Under the pieces are notes generated by a model. That model was not told where the DNA came from, searched no databases, and saw nothing but the letters and a program-made list of their open reading frames with translations. A program made the translations under genes and the position numbers. Below, piece by piece: positions 1,656 to 29,999 of a DNA stretch of 34,016 nt (positions are counted from its first letter, which is position 1; each line of letters starts with the position of its first letter). This DNA comes from Nitrospirota bacterium (GTDB lineage: Bacteria; Nitrospirota; UBA9217): contig JAOUEV010000039.1 in assembly GCA_029858565.1 (NCBI GenBank), positions 1 to 34,016 of the forward strand, read 5' to 3'.

Positions 1656-4304
1656 ATGACCGACCTGACCCCCTTGATGAAACAATACCACGAGATCAAG
1701 CGGCAGCATCTTGACTCGATCCTGCTGTTCCGCATGGGCGACTTCTATGAGATGTTCGACCAGGACGCGGTGACGGCTTCCAAAGTGCTCGAGATCACGC
1801 TGACGCAGCGCAATAAATCAAAAGGGAACGAAACCCCCCTCTGCGGATTCCCGTACCATGCAGTGGAAGGGTATATTGCCAAGCTGATCCGCAGGGGTTT
1901 CAAGGTGGCGGTGTGCGAACAGGTCGAGGACCCCAAGCTTGCCAAAGGGCTGGTGAAACGCGAGGTCATCAGGGTGGTAACGCCCGGTACGGTGCTGGAC
2001 GCGAACCTGCTCGATGCCAAGGACAATAATTATCTTGCGTCCATCTATCCGGGCAGAACGGGCTACGGCGTCGCGTTCCTGGACATCTCGACCGGTGATT
2101 TTCACGCTGCTGAGGTGCAAGGCGCAGGTAATTTCGCAGAGCTCGATACCGTGCTGTCGCGGTTCACGCCGCGGGAGGTCGTACTGCCGAAGGGGCACCC
2201 GGCGGACCGGGATCTTATGGCGCTGATCAACCAGTATACCCGTGCGGTGAACACCTACGATGACTGGACCTTTGACCGGGATACGGCGCGCAGGTCACTG
2301 CTGGACCATTTCAAAATAACTTCGCTCGAAGGTTTCGGCTGCGACGGCATGACCACCGGGATCTCGGCCGCAGGCGCCGCGCTCAGGTACATCGAGGAGA
2401 CCCAGAAGACCGCCCTTGCCAATATCAGGACCATGAAACCGTACCTGGCGCGGTCGTCCATGATCATTGACGCGGCCTGCCAAAGGAACCTTGAGCTGGT
2501 AAGGAACATCTTCGACGGGTCCGTCAACGGCACGCTGCTGTCGGTCCTTGACCATACGGTCACGTCGATGGCAGGCAGAAAACTGCGGGAGTGGCTCCTG
2601 AACCCGCTTCTGGACCACCAGGAGATCAACGGCAGGCTCGATGCCGTTGCAGAGCTCAAGGACCGCCACCAGGTGCGTACCGGGGTCCGCGCGGCATTGG
2701 GCCGCGTCTATGACCTTGAACGGCTCATCAGCCGGGTTTCTCTCGGCGTTGCCAACGCCCGGGACCTGGTCGCGCTCAAGATATCCTTCAAGGCCCTGCC
2801 GGATATCAAGAACCTCCTTTCTCTGAGCGCATCGGGACTTATCAAGGACCTTCTGGAAAAATGGGACGATATCGAAGACCTGTATTCGCTCATTGAACGA
2901 TCGATCAACGATGATCCTCCGTTCACGCTTCGTGAGGGGAAGCTCATCAAGAAAGGCTGTAATGCGGAGCTGGACGAACTTCTTGAGATCAGCACCGAAG
3001 GAAAAGGGTTCATAGCTTCCATCGAACTGCGGGAACGGGAGCGGACCGGCATCTCATCGCTCAAGGTGAGCTACAACAAGGTCTTCGGCTACTATATCGA
3101 GGTGACCAAGCCTAACCTCCCGAACGTGCCGACGGATTATATCCGCAAGCAGACCATGACCAACGCAGAACGGTTCATCACTCCGGAACTCAAGGAGTAC
3201 GAGGACAAGGTCCTGAACGCGGAAGAGAAGATCCTGGACCTTGAATACCGTCTGTTCCAGGAAGTGCGCGAGCAGGTAAGCCGCCAGACGGTCCGCGTGC
3301 AGGACATGGCACGAAGGATAGCAGTGCTGGACTGCCTGGTCTCCCTGGCTGAGGCTGCCGCACAGTACAATTACAGCAGGCCGGTGGTTGACCAGGGGGA
3401 TTCTCTCCGGATCATCGAAGGCCGTCACCCGGTGATCGAACGTCTGACCGCGGACCGGTTCGTTCCGAACGACACGGTCCTGGACTGCGAAGAGAACCAG
3501 CTCATCATCATCACCGGCCCGAACATGGCGGGGAAGTCGACCTATATGCGCCAGGTTGCCCTTATCGCCATCATGGCGCAGATGGGAAGTTTCGTTCCTG
3601 CTCGCGAGGCGATCGTGGGAATCGTGGACCGCGTGTTCACCCGTGTCGGAGCATCGGATTTCCTCGCCCGGGGACAGAGTACCTTCATGGTCGAGATGAA
3701 TGAGACCGCCAACATCCTGAACAACGCCACGAGCAGAAGCCTGATCATTCTCGATGAGATCGGCAGGGGGACCAGCACGTTCGACGGCATAAGTATCGCC
3801 TGGGCTGTTGCCGAGCATATCCATGAGAAGCTCAGGGCACGGACGCTCTTCGCCACCCATTACCATGAGCTCACCGATCTTTCGCTTACCATGGACCGGG
3901 TCAGGAACTTCAATGTTGCGATCAAGGAGTGGAACGACCAGATCATTTTCCTGAGAAAGGTTGTGGAAGGCGGAGCTGACAAGTCCTATGGGATCCAGGT
4001 CGCCCGGCTCGCGGGATTGCCCGCCCAGGTGATCGAGCGCGCTCGGGAAGTGCTGGCAAACCTGGAACAGGCTGAGTTCGATGAAACCGGCGAACCGGTG
4101 GCAGGGCATACGGAACGTGCGGCGGCACGAGAAAAGCGAACTGCCAGGACGCCGGACGAACCTTCGGGTCCGCAGCTTGGCCTGTTCGCGGCCAGGGACG
4201 CGAATCTGGTCCGGGAAATCGCCGAAATGGACCTTGATGCCATGACACCGCTTGAAGCCATGAACAAACTTGCGGAGATAAAGAAGAAGGCCTTGGGAAC
4301 ATAG
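1656..4304 (+). CDS. mutS: DNA mismatch repair protein MutS
   Basis: Mismatch-recognition ATPase of methyl-independent or MutL-coupled repair. At 882 aa it is close to E. coli MutS (853). The N-terminal mismatch-binding domain begins LTPLMKQYHEIKRQ and carries the Phe-x-Glu wedge in FRMGDFYEMF. Connector, lever and clamp domains follow, then the ATPase domain with Walker A GPNMAGKST near residue 621, the DEIGRGTSTFDG Walker B/signature segment, and the FATHYHELT motif. The C-terminal ~80 residues are a less conserved tail. The start at 1656 matches the family N-terminus, although the Shine-Dalgarno is weak. The upstream 85 bp holds a 12-bp palindrome. No MutL is visible in the window. Confidence 0.98.
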   Translation: MTDLTPLMKQYHEIKRQHLDSILLFRMGDFYEMFDQDAVTASKVLEITLTQRNKSKGNETPLCGFPYHAVEGYIAKLIRRGFKVAVCEQVEDPKLAKGLVKREVIRVVTPGTVLDANLLDAKDNNYLASIYPGRTGYGVAFLDISTGDFHAAEVQGAGNFAELDTVLSRFTPREVVLPKGHPADRDLMALINQYTRAVNTYDDWTFDRDTARRSLLDHFKITSLEGFGCDGMTTGISAAGAALRYIEETQKTALANIRTMKPYLARSSMIIDAACQRNLELVRNIFDGSVNGTLLSVLDHTVTSMAGRKLREWLLNPLLDHQEINGRLDAVAELKDRHQVRTGVRAALGRVYDLERLISRVSLGVANARDLVALKISFKALPDIKNLLSLSASGLIKDLLEKWDDIEDLYSLIERSINDDPPFTLREGKLIKKGCNAELDELLEISTEGKGFIASIELRERERTGISSLKVSYNKVFGYYIEVTKPNLPNVPTDYIRKQTMTNAERFITPELKEYEDKVLNAEEKILDLEYRLFQEVREQVSRQTVRVQDMARRIAVLDCLVSLAEAAAQYNYSRPVVDQGDSLRIIEGRHPVIERLTADRFVPNDTVLDCEENQLIIITGPNMAGKSTYMRQVALIAIMAQMGSFVPAREAIVGIVDRVFTRVGASDFLARGQSTFMVEMNETANILNNATSRSLIILDEIGRGTSTFDGISIAWAVAEHIHEKLRARTLFATHYHELTDLSLTMDRVRNFNVAIKEWNDQIIFLRKVVEGGADKSYGIQVARLAGLPAQVIERAREVLANLEQAEFDETGEPVAGHTERAAAREKRTARTPDEPSGPQLGLFAARDANLVREIAEMDLDAMTPLEAMNKLAEIKKKALGT

Positions 4305-4391: not shown

Positions 4392-4419
4392 TTTACAGCC
4401 CTGCTGACTTTAGAATAAT
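4392..4419 (+). promoter_or_regulatory. Sigma-70-type promoter for the envelope cluster
   Basis: TTTACA (4392-4397), a 16-bp spacer and AATAAT (4414-4419), each 5 of 6 to consensus. It lies 33 bp before the start of the caspase-like gene and could drive the five genes up to 10961. The -35 hexamer overlaps a small GC-rich hairpin (4387-4402). Confidence 0.5.
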
Positions 4420-4451
4420 ATGCATCTGCTTTGCGATAAGGAGTGATCTTG

Positions 4452-5696
4452 ATGCTTCGTGCCGTTCTGATGCTTATAGCTGCCATGCTGAGCTTGCTGA
4501 CAGCACCTGAACCGGTCTTCGCGGTTGAGGATTGCGTATGGGCCGCGAGGTTGTCCGAGGAAGGCATCGCGCTTCTCAATGACCACCCGTCGAGGGCAGT
4601 GAATAAGCTGAAGGACGCGATAAGTTATTGCGGATTAAGCGCGTCGCTTTATTATAATCTCGGCTTGGCGTACTATAAGCAGAATAAATTTGCTGAGGCC
4701 CGCGACCAGATGGAGCGGGCTATGAGGCTGAGGCCAGGCTATGCAAAAGCAGCGAACGACCTTGCCTATATCTATGCAGCACACCTGAACGACAAGCAGC
4801 GGGCCTGGATACTTGCACGCGTAGCGGTGCGGTCTGATCCAAAGAACAATGATTTTCTTGAGACCTTTGCGCTGACAAAGGAACTGGATATCGAAGATCC
4901 GCCAAAGCTCGACACCAGGCGTCCTGATGCCGTGGCAATTGTTATCGGCAACCGGAACTATAAGAGCAGCAGCATACCTGCGGTGGAGTTCGCGCATCGT
5001 GATGCCTCCCTGGTCAAGCGATATCTCGATGAGGCATGCGGTTTCCGCGGCGGCGACATCATTGATATCTCCGATGCAAATGTGTCGCAGATGAACAAGG
5101 TGTTCGGAGACAAGGATGATCACCGGGGCATTCTCTACGACAGGATCGAACCTGCCAAGAGTGACGTGGTCATCTACTATACAGGGCATGGCGCCTATGA
5201 CCCCGTTGCCAGAGAAAGCTACCTTCTTCCCATGAGCGCTGACACTGCTGCGCTGGGAGAAACGGCCTACCCGCTGAGCATGCTCTATGAGAATCTTGCA
5301 AAGATCAACAAGGAAAAGAGACCTCGAAGCGTTGTCCTTATCCTGGATGCTTCTTTTAACAGCTCGGTCCCGGGCGGCGCAATCATCCCGGAAGCGGACC
5401 CGGTGGCCGTTCTTACCAATGCACCGCTGGCGGCTATGAAAAATGTCGCTGCCTTTATTAGCGCACGAAGCGATCAAGAGAGTTCCGTGTATGCTGAGAA
5501 GGGTCATGGATTGTTCACCTACCTGTTCGTGCGGTCGCTCCGAGAACTGATCGAGATGAACAGCAATGGTTCAGTTGCTGATTTGGAGGCGATCCTTTTA
5601 GGATTTGACGGGGTTAGCGACACAGCAAAGCGCCTATACAATAGGGACCAGGTCCCGCAGATCGTAGGGAACAAGACAATCACGCTGATGCCCTGA
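4452..5696 (+). CDS. Exported TPR plus caspase-fold protein, catalytic Cys replaced by Ser
   Basis: 414 aa from the ATG at 4452, preceded by a near-perfect anti-16S match AAGGAGTGATC; a GTG at 4443 is possible but overlaps that site. An N-terminal signal peptide ends around PVFA. Residues ~30-145 hold two or three TPR-like helical repeats (e.g. YYNLGLAYYKQNKFAEARD). The rest is a peptidase C14 (caspase/metacaspase) p20-like domain: VAIVIGNRNY, AHRDASLVKRYL, then the catalytic His in YYTGHGA (His246). The position of the nucleophile, normally D-A-C, reads LDASFN, so Cys is Ser301 (codon TCT, one base from TGT). The protein is thus probably a pseudoprotease or a binding module, unless Ser can serve. 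It is the first of five same-strand genes for exported proteins. The fold is secure; activity and partner are unknown. Confidence 0.85.
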   Translation: MLRAVLMLIAAMLSLLTAPEPVFAVEDCVWAARLSEEGIALLNDHPSRAVNKLKDAISYCGLSASLYYNLGLAYYKQNKFAEARDQMERAMRLRPGYAKAANDLAYIYAAHLNDKQRAWILARVAVRSDPKNNDFLETFALTKELDIEDPPKLDTRRPDAVAIVIGNRNYKSSSIPAVEFAHRDASLVKRYLDEACGFRGGDIIDISDANVSQMNKVFGDKDDHRGILYDRIEPAKSDVVIYYTGHGAYDPVARESYLLPMSADTAALGETAYPLSMLYENLAKINKEKRPRSVVLILDASFNSSVPGGAIIPEADPVAVLTNAPLAAMKNVAAFISARSDQESSVYAEKGHGLFTYLFVRSLRELIEMNSNGSVADLEAILLGFDGVSDTAKRLYNRDQVPQIVGNKTITLMP

Positions 5697-28024: not shown

Positions 28025-28053
28025 TTGACTCTCCATTGGAAACTCTATATACT
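28025..28053 (+). promoter_or_regulatory. Strong promoter upstream of the methyltransferase cassette
   Basis: TTGACT (28025-28030), a 17-bp spacer and TATACT (28048-28053), each 5 of 6. It lies ~100 bp upstream of the proposed cassette edge and 130 bp before the gene. The rest of the 272-bp stretch 27912-28183 is AT-rich and shows no other gene, terminator or clear attI site. Confidence 0.55.
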
Positions 28054-28151
28054 CGTCCCACAAAGTGCACCCTTCCTGGCATCATAATTGCTAAATTCGA
28101 TAAGAACGAAAATCCGTGCTTTCCTATACGGTTTATGAATAGATATACACA

Positions 28152-29203
28152 TTAGGCGTACAAAGACACACATAGGAGAACTAATGATAAATTTGATAAT
28201 AAAGGCACTTCCCCTAGCGGACATAATGTTGATGCCGCTCGTTTACCCAGCCGCATGGCTACTGAAAAATATTCGCAAAGCCGGAGTACACAGGTTACCG
28301 CTCTGCAAGAGTGCATTGATGAAGGTAGGCGTATTCCCAATTCGCAATCACTACTACGAGCCACAATTTGACAACCGGAATCCGAGGCCAGATTTTTCTC
28401 AAGACAGAAATTTGCAAGGAATAGACTGGAACATTCCAGAACAGTTGAAACTGCTTGGTTCATTTACATTTTCCCATGAACTTTTGGGCCTTACAAAAGC
28501 AAAACAGGACTCACTGGAGTTTTATTTAAACAACGGCGCGTTTGAGTCAGGAGATGCTGAGTATTGGTATCAAATAATTCGCGCCATTAAACCAAAGAGA
28601 ATAGTTGAGATTGGTAGTGGAAACTCCACTTTAATGGCAGTTAAGGCCATCAACAAGAACCGCAAGGAAGATCCAAGTTACAAATGCGAGCATGTTTGTA
28701 TTGAACCTTATGAAATGCCTTGGCTTGAGAAAGCTGGAGTATCTGTAATCAGAAAAAAAGTTGAGGAAGTTGATTTATCATTCTTTTCTCAACTACAAGA
28801 AAACGACATCTTGTTTATTGACTCGTCACACATTATACGCCCACAGGGTGATGTTCTTTTTGAACATCTCGAACTGCTTCCGTCTCTCAATAAAGGTGTA
28901 ATCGTTCATGTTCATGATATCTTTTCTCCTAAGAATTATCGAAAGGAATGGTTGACTGACGAGGTTAGGTTTTGGAACGAACAATATTTGCTTGAGGCGT
29001 TTCTTTCGCACAATAGCAGCTGGAGAATTATCGGCGCTTTAAATTTTCTGCATCATAATCACTACGAAGAATTTAAAATGGCAGCGCCGTTCTTATCACC
29101 TGAACGAGAACCTGGGTCATTCTATATTCAAAAAATCGCCTAACAAGGCGCTGCACCGGACGGCAATTGCACTCCGCTCCATTGCCGCCGGTGAGCTTGG
29201 TCG
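28152..29203 (+). mobile_element. Integron-type gene cassette carrying a methyltransferase
   Basis: The proposed cassette runs from TTAGGC (28152-28157) to the G of the attC core at 29203, 1052 bp. If it were excised and closed to a circle, this G would join TTAGGC and give GTTAGGC, the exact complement of the GCCTAAC at 29138-29144; that is the rule for integron cassettes. The cassette holds one gene that fills it and is more AT-rich than the flanks. The base before the left edge is A, not the usual G, and no integrase is in the window, so it may be a cassette that was inserted at a secondary site or left behind. Confidence 0.6.
28184..29143 (+). CDS. Class I SAM-dependent methyltransferase-like protein
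   Basis: 319 aa. The start at 28184 has AGGAG five bases upstream. A hydrophobic N-terminal stretch (about 1-30) is followed by a variable region and then a Rossmann-type domain: IVEIGSGNST at about 140-149 is motif I for SAM, EHVCIEPYEMPWL the motif II acidic strand, and DILFIDSSHIIRPQGDV and VHVHDIFSPK later strands with conserved His/Asp as in Methyltransf_24-like proteins. The substrate is unknown; relatives are common beside polysaccharide or glycan genes, but none is here. Base composition is clearly lower in GC than glnE or rnr. The stop codon lies inside the attC-like core, usual for cassette genes. Confidence 0.8.
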   Translation: MINLIIKALPLADIMLMPLVYPAAWLLKNIRKAGVHRLPLCKSALMKVGVFPIRNHYYEPQFDNRNPRPDFSQDRNLQGIDWNIPEQLKLLGSFTFSHELLGLTKAKQDSLEFYLNNGAFESGDAEYWYQIIRAIKPKRIVEIGSGNSTLMAVKAINKNRKEDPSYKCEHVCIEPYEMPWLEKAGVSVIRKKVEEVDLSFFSQLQENDILFIDSSHIIRPQGDVLFEHLELLPSLNKGVIVHVHDIFSPKNYRKEWLTDEVRFWNEQYLLEAFLSHNSSWRIIGALNFLHHNHYEEFKMAAPFLSPEREPGSFYIQKIA

Positions 29204-29209
29204 TTGCAT
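29138..29209 (+). repeat. attC-like recombination site (59-base element)
   Basis: GCCTAAC (29138-29144) fits the RYYYAAC core. The arms GCTGCACCGG-A-CGGCAAT and ATTGCCGCCGGTGAGC pair along their whole length around a 13-base loop, except for two unpaired bases in the left arm (the G after GCT and the A after CCGG), as expected for the extrahelical bases of attC. The right core GTTGCAT (29203-29209) fits GTTRRRY at six of seven bases. Confidence 0.75.
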
Positions 29210-29221
29210 GGGAGTCTAGTC

Positions 29222-29395
29222 ATGCTTAATAGAATTTATTTAATAGTTTTTCTGCTCGCCGTATCCATAGCAATGCACTTTTTCCCCACCATAAAAGAAT
29301 CCAACGCCCAGGATTCTTCTCTTTCAACCTTTGAACCAGGTAATGCTTCTAATTTCGTTCAGCCATCCTTGAAAAATAAAAAGCAAATTCATTAG
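29222..29395 (+). CDS. Small secreted peptide, probably cut short by an IS end
   Basis: 57 aa from the ATG at 29222: MLNRIYLIVFLLAVSIAMHFF is a signal peptide or membrane anchor, followed by a polar tail. The stop codon (29393-29395) lies just where the terminal sequence of the IS remnant begins, so the original protein was probably longer. It follows the attC-like site by 13 bp and may be the first part of a second cassette gene. I do not recognise the family. Confidence 0.4.
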   Translation: MLNRIYLIVFLLAVSIAMHFFPTIKESNAQDSSLSTFEPGNASNFVQPSLKNKKQIH

Positions 29396-29616
29396 TGTCC
29401 GGTAAAAACTAAAAAGGCATGGCCTGATTCCTTGTCTTGTTAGATAATAGAGTTATCCCTAACACTATTACTACAAGGAGGAACAAGCCATGCGCTAGTT
29501 GGAGACGATCTTCGGTGAGCTGCTGAAACTCATACCGAGATATAAGTTCGACAAAGCTGTACAGCAGTACCAGGGAGACAGATACGCCAAGTCCTACACG
29601 ATGTGGCATCTTCTTG
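29394..29616 (+). mobile_element. Left-end remnant of an IS4-type insertion sequence
   Basis: The region begins AGTGTCCGGTAAAAACTAAA, like the ends of IS4-family elements, runs through a leader with AAGGAGG, and enters a transposase start at 29490. It ends near 29616, where the sequence changes to BrnT. The rest of the element and its right end are missing. Confidence 0.6.
29490..29615 (+). pseudogene. IS4-family (DUF4372) transposase, N-terminal fragment
   Basis: ATG at 29490 behind AAGGAGG, then a TAG at codon 3 (MR-stop-LETIFGELLK), where relatives have Gln (CAG to TAG is one change). The remaining codons, ETIFGELLKLIPRYKFDK, then KSYTMWHLL, match the N-terminal DUF4372 part of IS4-type transposases. 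The frame then runs into the BrnT remnant without a break. Only about 40 of some 380-400 codons remain. Confidence 0.7.
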
Positions 29617-29741
29617 GATTAAGCGCCAAAATCCGTTTATTGGCAATATGTCACTGCTACAGAAAGAGCGACGAGGTTGTCAGGATCATAACCGCGCGAA
29701 AAGCAACCCGCAACGAGCAGAAACGTTATTGGGAAAGGTGA
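29613..29741 (+). pseudogene. brnT: BrnT ribonuclease toxin, C-terminal half only
   Basis: The 42 residues LGLSAKIRLLAICHCYRKSDEVVRIITARKATRNEQKRYWER match the second half of the RelE-fold toxin BrnT, including the RIIxARKATxxE block found in nearly all members. The first ~45-50 residues are replaced by the transposase fragment, fused in frame. The N-terminal core strands and helix are gone, so the toxin should be inactive, and the native promoter is lost too. The stop lies 6 bp before brnA. Confidence 0.8.
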
Positions 29742-29747
29742 GGGAAG

Positions 29748-29999
29748 ATGAGAAAAGAATACGACTTTTCAAAAGCAGTGAAAAATCCCTACGCGAGCAG
29801 ACTCAAACGTCAAGTAACGCTCAGGATGGATGAGGGTACGATCAGTTATTTTAAGAAACTGGCCGAGGAAATCGGTGTGCCCTATCAGACCCTCATCAAT
29901 CTCTATCTGAGGGATTGCGCCGCGTCTCATAAGAAACTGGCGCTTCACTGGAAAACTGCTTTGCTCATGCCAGGGTGGGTCCTTCCTGGCACGCAATGA
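29748..29999 (+). CDS. brnA: BrnA antitoxin
   Basis: 83 aa. MRKEYDFSKAVKNPYASRLKRQVTLR is the toxin-binding N-terminus of BrnA, and DEGTISYFKKLAEEIGVPYQTLINLYLRDCAA the ribbon-helix-helix DNA-binding domain. GAGGGAAG precedes the ATG. The last ~13 residues (TALLMPGWVLPGTQ) do not look conserved. In intact loci BrnA neutralises BrnT and represses the brnTA promoter; here the toxin gene and the operator in front of it are destroyed, so this is an orphan antitoxin, which might still protect against BrnT from elsewhere. Confidence 0.86.
   Translation: MRKEYDFSKAVKNPYASRLKRQVTLRMDEGTISYFKKLAEEIGVPYQTLINLYLRDCAASHKKLALHWKTALLMPGWVLPGTQ

Follow-up and report, generated by a model that had tools for sequence, protein, structure and literature searches.

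An integron gene cassette beside one of several dispersed attI-like elements in a Nitrospirota genome

Introduction

Sedentary chromosomal integrons are described with one attI that directly adjoins the integrase gene, intI (PMC9668308, PMC8618304). Cassette clusters devoid of intI are also known; proposals for their origin include off-target insertion, rearrangement and the loss of intI (PMC8618304). In the open-access literature searched, we found no precedent for attI sites that are scattered or stand without intI, or for attI hairpins.

Here we analyzed a window of 34,016 bp, the entire contig C101 of a 3.92-Mb Nitrospirota draft genome of 144 contigs. We assign a probability of roughly three in four to the reading that dispersed attI platforms without intI each found their own array, with the window comprising a Pc promoter, an attI-like element (termed E) and one cassette. 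Those parts of this reading that were observed are both edges of the cassette, its attC site, the occurrence of E in many copies, copies adjacent to intI, an attC behind most copies, and differing cassettes at orthologous loci; the genomes compared are draft, MAG-like assemblies, a caveat that we counted against it. Below, G-numbers denote genomes of relatives, C-numbers contigs and L-numbers compared loci.

Results

The cassette and its attC site

The first-pass annotation of the window had proposed a complete attC with both cores, pairing arms and two unpaired bases, and the site withstood closer scrutiny. It spans 29138-29209 on the forward strand and displays the R'' core GCCTAAC (29138-29144), paired arms with two extra-helical bases and the crossover G29203|TTGCAT, positions 29204-29209 being the half core TTGCAT of the neighbor. 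A covariance model of five attCs of the Thiolapillus plasmid pTBH13, generated with the window excluded (R1), reached 71.1 bits at this site, with E=2.7e-15 for a search of the whole genome, and the DNA fold of -19.1 kcal/mol (z=-2.9) was equalled by only 1 of 200 shuffles. Furthermore, attCs of three plasmids, of Geoalkalibacter, Citrobacter and Thiolapillus, are 85-94% identical to that of the window, the Citrobacter one adjoining a group II intron. An Rfam search returned no match. As also anticipated, the attC overlaps a stop codon, the TAA within the core GCCTAAC terminating an ORF at 28184-29143 (forward strand) for a SAM-dependent methyltransferase of 319 aa (PF13578, Methyltransf_24), the GC content of which is 40% as compared to 61% for glnE.

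The gene cassette occupies 28152-29203 on the same strand, from TTAGGC at the left edge to the crossover G of the attC at the right. We consider the left edge real because homologues in four other genomes begin exactly at 28152, namely in a gammaproteobacterium (L068), Leptolyngbya (L093), a Cycloclasticus symbiont (L065) and Candidatus Electronema (L069). These loci belong to Cyanobacteria, Gammaproteobacteria and Desulfobulbaceae, their host genomes being unrelated to the source genome, and in L069 and L068 the homology runs through the gene into the attC. A TTRRRY left bound and an attC right bound are hence common, as a unit, to unrelated genomes. Judged from sequence, the segment is a real integron gene cassette, and its excision as a circle by IntI is predicted.

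Directly behind it, at 29204-29396 on the forward strand, the layout hints at the start of a possible second, truncated cassette, with an ORF of 57 aa (29222-29395) that begins 18 nt past the crossover. Covariance models detected no attC behind this segment, and no plasmid homologue of it was found. Next follows an insertion-sequence (IS) remnant at 29397-29738 (forward strand), in which a DUF4372 N-terminus with a stop at the third codon continues as a BrnT toxin C-terminus. The array seems to be cut short on the right by this remnant, which would explain why it ends there. With a single attC the window falls below the IntegronFinder 2 default for a CALIN (at least two attC sites without intI), and it would correspond to a single-attC CALIN. 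Separately, we observed that positions 29499-29999 hold the in-frame fusion of the DUF4372 transposase N-terminus with the BrnT C-terminus, followed by an intact BrnA antitoxin.

Spread of the methyltransferase between phyla

The methyltransferase family is found across many phyla, and the suggestion that this gene travels as a cassette was substantiated by the left edge shared among four distant genomes and by a complete attC after the gene in L069. In L070 an attC lies upstream of the gene, and half attCs (TAACAARGC straight after the stop codon) persist in L065, L066, L068, L085 and L097, that is in five of approximately 78 loci with at least 5 of 6 matching bases, against 0.36 expected. 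In the gene tree the window is sister to Leptolyngbya and the gammaproteobacterial L068 (99/90), against the organism relationships. Sequence comparison accordingly indicates that the methyltransferase moves between bacterial phyla as a cassette, one that is common to Nitrospirota, Cyanobacteria and Gammaproteobacteria. In L097, where the half attC follows the stop codon, imperfect direct repeats, about 100 bp long, also stand on both sides of the gene.

A trivial explanation would be that the hairpin at the gene end is no attC and that the gene is ordinary and vertically inherited. Indeed, a genome of the same genus carries a 74% identical gene elsewhere, without an attC. The nearest genome, which is of this genus, includes the contig "Nitrospirae bacterium isolate WY3.bin154", L072 and L044 being apparently one and the same contig of 52,750 bp. 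The strength of the covariance match and the exact left edge common across phyla nevertheless speak against coincidence, and the same-genus gene is not the nearest in the tree; we regard the chance reading as already refuted, its residual probability being negligible. The same-genus gene was also considered as the source of the cassette, and rejected, as the tree shows other nearest relatives for the window gene.

An attI-like element at the left edge

A search for the empty site among 148 relatives revealed element E. The simple junction that had been predicted, of 28151 with 29204, was found in none of them; instead, the left flank recurs in relatives joined to different sequences, the similarity stopping at the cassette edge. 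The empty site of the window itself is not reconstructable because the right flank of the cassette is disrupted. E is located at 28078-28151 on the forward strand, with a length of about 75 bp, and its copies end in CACTGG|TT with a different sequence after each. A sequence model of E obtained from ten copies, again with the window excluded (R2), matched 28078-28150 at E=1.5e-15.

At a distance of 11-12 nt from the crossover, on its left, copies of E contain a hairpin that is paired in 87% of cells, with double-sided changes in 6 of 7 pairs. Its covariation score is 0.51, whereas shuffles gave 0.21 and sliding gave no more than 0.13. A second hairpin, overlapping the first, is more weakly supported. 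G-U intermediates are almost missing from the hairpin, which suggests, as far as an alignment can tell, that a DNA structure rather than an RNA structure is maintained.

In the window the 3' end of E has decayed from CACTGG|TT to CACA|TT. The left edge was placed correctly by the first-pass annotation and is exact in four loci. The nucleotide that precedes the crossover is A instead of G, however, so that the left core is not intact. Considering this loss of the last bases of E, including the G at the crossover, the cassette is probably locked in.

Upstream of E by 24 nt we find a Pc-like sigma-70 promoter, TTGACT-17-TATACT, at 28025-28053 (forward strand). Its similarity to a Pc had been pointed out before; the 10 of 12 consensus matches do not by themselves exceed chance (1.1 expected, 1 found), but the spacing is conserved at homologous sites. 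The motif TTGACN-17-TATANT stops precisely 24 nt short of E in four copies, in the window, G006:C54, the intI-adjacent G012:C81 and G004:C5, and 23 nt before it in a fifth, G009:C72, whereas most E copies are missing the motif. The idea that this promoter originally served the gene that follows glnE was also contemplated and dropped, since the promoter-E spacing recurs at other loci. As an aside, 23 of the 33 E copies contain GGCAY-N5-TTGC (columns 1-14 of alignment A8), which resembles a sigma-54 promoter (GG-N10-GC). A sigma-54 promoter inside E is a suggestion at best, as 10 of 33 copies are without the motif and E would sit in the leader of the Pc transcript.

The nature of this left flank bears on whether IntI inserted the cassette off-target, at a non-attI genomic position (an attG or a classical secondary site) that lay near a promoter by chance. 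Insertions at attG sites are known (Loot et al. 2024, as related in passages of PMC12901181 and PMC12444791), the contig is devoid of intI, and the base at the left crossover is A. An attG or secondary site would however be unrelated to attI or attC, while here the left flank is a conserved, attI-like multicopy element that ends at the crossover and stands beside intI in two relatives, which is not expected of a random site. Together with the R2 match this strongly disfavors off-target insertion, and we judge it very unlikely; the secondary-site insertion put forward by the first-pass annotation is thereby replaced by an attI-like element with many copies in the genome and the family.

Copies of the element across genomes

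Searches with R2 recovered eight strong copies of E in the source genome, on contigs C18, C19, C20, C36, C38, C62, C101 and C117, approximately 11 in G009, approximately 8 in G006 and fewer in other members of the family (3-11 in several), while among six genomes of the phylum that belong to different families no match fell below 0.02. At G012:C81 and G009:C15, E lies immediately upstream of a full intI in divergent orientation, that is in the attI position; intI adjoins only these 2 of 33 copies. An attC on the same strand follows within 5 kb downstream in 29 of the 33; the exceptions are C117 and G004:C121 with a weak attC, C20 with none, and G012:C81 at a contig edge. Upstream of E, an attC is present at C19 only.

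Alternatively, E could be a small dispersed repeat, such as a leader, a promoter module or a REP/MITE-like unit, behind which cassettes and other inserts tend to follow. E is a discrete unit of about 75-100 bp with a left edge that is sharp in some pairs and with a covarying hairpin, and searches of plasmids, phages and viral contigs each failed to find it, features that are congruent with such a repeat. That 28 of 33 copies end in TGG|TT, the cassette crossover, is difficult to reconcile with it, as are the attI position of the intI-adjacent copies and the downstream attCs, and we find this identity for E improbable. Rather, comparison of the copies leads us to infer that E is an attI and a putative substrate of IntI.

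Two further observations concern gene content, by eye only. In L180 (contig C117, from about 2400 down to 270 on the minus strand) the first cassette behind E is an ORF of about 2 kb that looks like a SIR2-type defence gene, and TIR- and caspase-like ORFs occur at an E site of G009:C1. Cassettes at E sites may hence carry defence genes.

Integrases and further attC sites of the source genome

A search of the whole genome with the profile TIGR02249 identified full IntI genes on C137 and C128 only, and none on the window contig, so that no intI adjoins the array. The earlier statement that no integrase is visible consequently holds for the contig, but not for the genome. The C137 gene is located at L022:1164-2558, with an attC at 93-149, and that of C128 at L024:1620-3053, with attCs at 4418-4479 and 5450-5508. 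Neither has an E-type attI beside it, a point against our preferred reading: the E copies of the source genome may be left over from an integrase that has been lost. In this Nitrospirota family the IntI proteins comprise 464-477 aa, with about 150 residues, covered by no Pfam family, preceding the usual N-terminal SAM-like domain.

A nucleotide search of the source genome with the window attC matched only itself, because the other attCs of the family differ; these were recovered with a covariance model (R3). With a covariance model of nine family attCs, at least 39 further sites emerged on approximately 20 contigs. It follows that cassette loci are dispersed over the genome and that the window holds one of a number, in contrast to the lone cassette that had been described. 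One of the other loci, L262 on contig C40, holds an N-terminal intI remnant of 39 aa (1531-1647; 59% to the C137 protein) near three attCs, and is another integron that has lost its integrase. In L025 (contig C26) an attC at 3166-3225 is adjoined by a gene encoding a tyrosine recombinase and by an ORF that resembles a transposase, IS91-type in appearance.

Differing cassettes at orthologous sites

Sister species allow direct comparison of E sites without intI. At an orthologous locus between a uracil-DNA-glycosylase-like gene and mutS (udg-E-mutS), G006 and G009 are 93% identical from -589 to one base past E, followed by unrelated inserts of about 0.4 kb in G006 and 3.1 kb in G009, and 89% identity resumes at the end of the last attC. 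A second orthologous pair, G006:C36 and G009:C57, equally has both flanks in common and different cassettes. Thus, cassettes differed or were exchanged at sites without intI. Moreover, G006:C110 and G009:C53 have only E in common (-2 to 72), with sharp edges on both sides, and so, from these alignments, E itself seems to have been copied.

These comparisons also bear on ordinary decay in place, according to which every E locus was once a complete integron that lost intI independently, with no system acting in trans. The last 23 residues of an intI are kept at G006:C2, at -206 to -274 from E, and with the N-terminal remnant on C40 they imply that losing the integrase gene is one way, at least, in which such sites arise. 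The window moreover retains Pc at the usual spacing, and CALINs have been proposed to originate, among other ways, by losing intI (PMC8618304). On the other hand, most E copies lack an intI remnant, some pairs of copies share nothing besides E, and cassette content differs between sister species at two intI-less loci. As a general account we therefore hold decay to be unlikely, though a serious contender. The relic of a lost chromosomal integron that had been offered for the window is the closer of the two original alternatives, at least.

Discussion

Aggregated, the data favor dispersed attI-like platforms as the setting of the window cassette. In the corresponding mechanism, E is one of about eight dispersed chromosomal copies, nearly all without intI and most with their own cassette or small array. 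IntI would have captured a circular methyltransferase cassette by joining its attC to E, with recombination at such an intI-less site presumably performed in trans or before intI was lost. The methyltransferase would then be transcribed from Pc (28025-28053) through E (28078-28151), making Pc its putative driver. The E copies of the source genome may be relics in this mechanism as well, whereas G009 and G012 possess an intI that matches E.

A further-reaching form, which we put forward tentatively and at slightly below even odds, is a distributed integron. Here many chromosomal attI sites without intI in this Nitrospirota family, each about 75 bp long and bearing a DNA hairpin that is conserved and in some cases a Pc as well, would be served in trans by one or two integrases encoded elsewhere, which insert and exchange cassettes. 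Several genomic outlets per integrase would alter the picture of cassette expression, with many first positions in place of one. Irrespective of this, a conserved attI-like site marks cassette loci without intI, the origin of which becomes directly testable in this family, and the 33 attI-like copies with covariation provide a dataset suggesting that structure matters in attI.

Among known systems, CALINs (IntegronFinder 2.0, PMC9024848) are alike in having attC cassettes with no intI nearby, several per genome, and possibly an intI elsewhere. Their definition includes no attI, whereas the intI-less loci here are founded on a conserved, recognizable attI-like site of many copies. The sedentary chromosomal integron, organized as intI - Pc - attI - array, is comparable in the Pc-like promoter, the attI-like site, the G|TT crossover and the attC cassettes, and is matched by the divergent arrangement of E beside intI at G012:C81 and G009:C15; the difference is that attI-like copies are dispersed here over 3-11 places, hardly any of them with an intI, and that they contain a covarying hairpin. 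The attG and secondary sites share the placement of cassettes outside the main integron near promoters, but in the passages on Loot et al. 2024 in PMC12901181 and PMC12444791 attG sites are reported as many and diverse, and E is one conserved family of about 75 bp. Finally, the Delta-attI-type gene cassettes (PMC12901181) set a precedent for attI sequence leaving intI; there, fragments of attI delimit cassettes of mobile integrons, while in the present family whole attI-like sites are dispersed on chromosomes.
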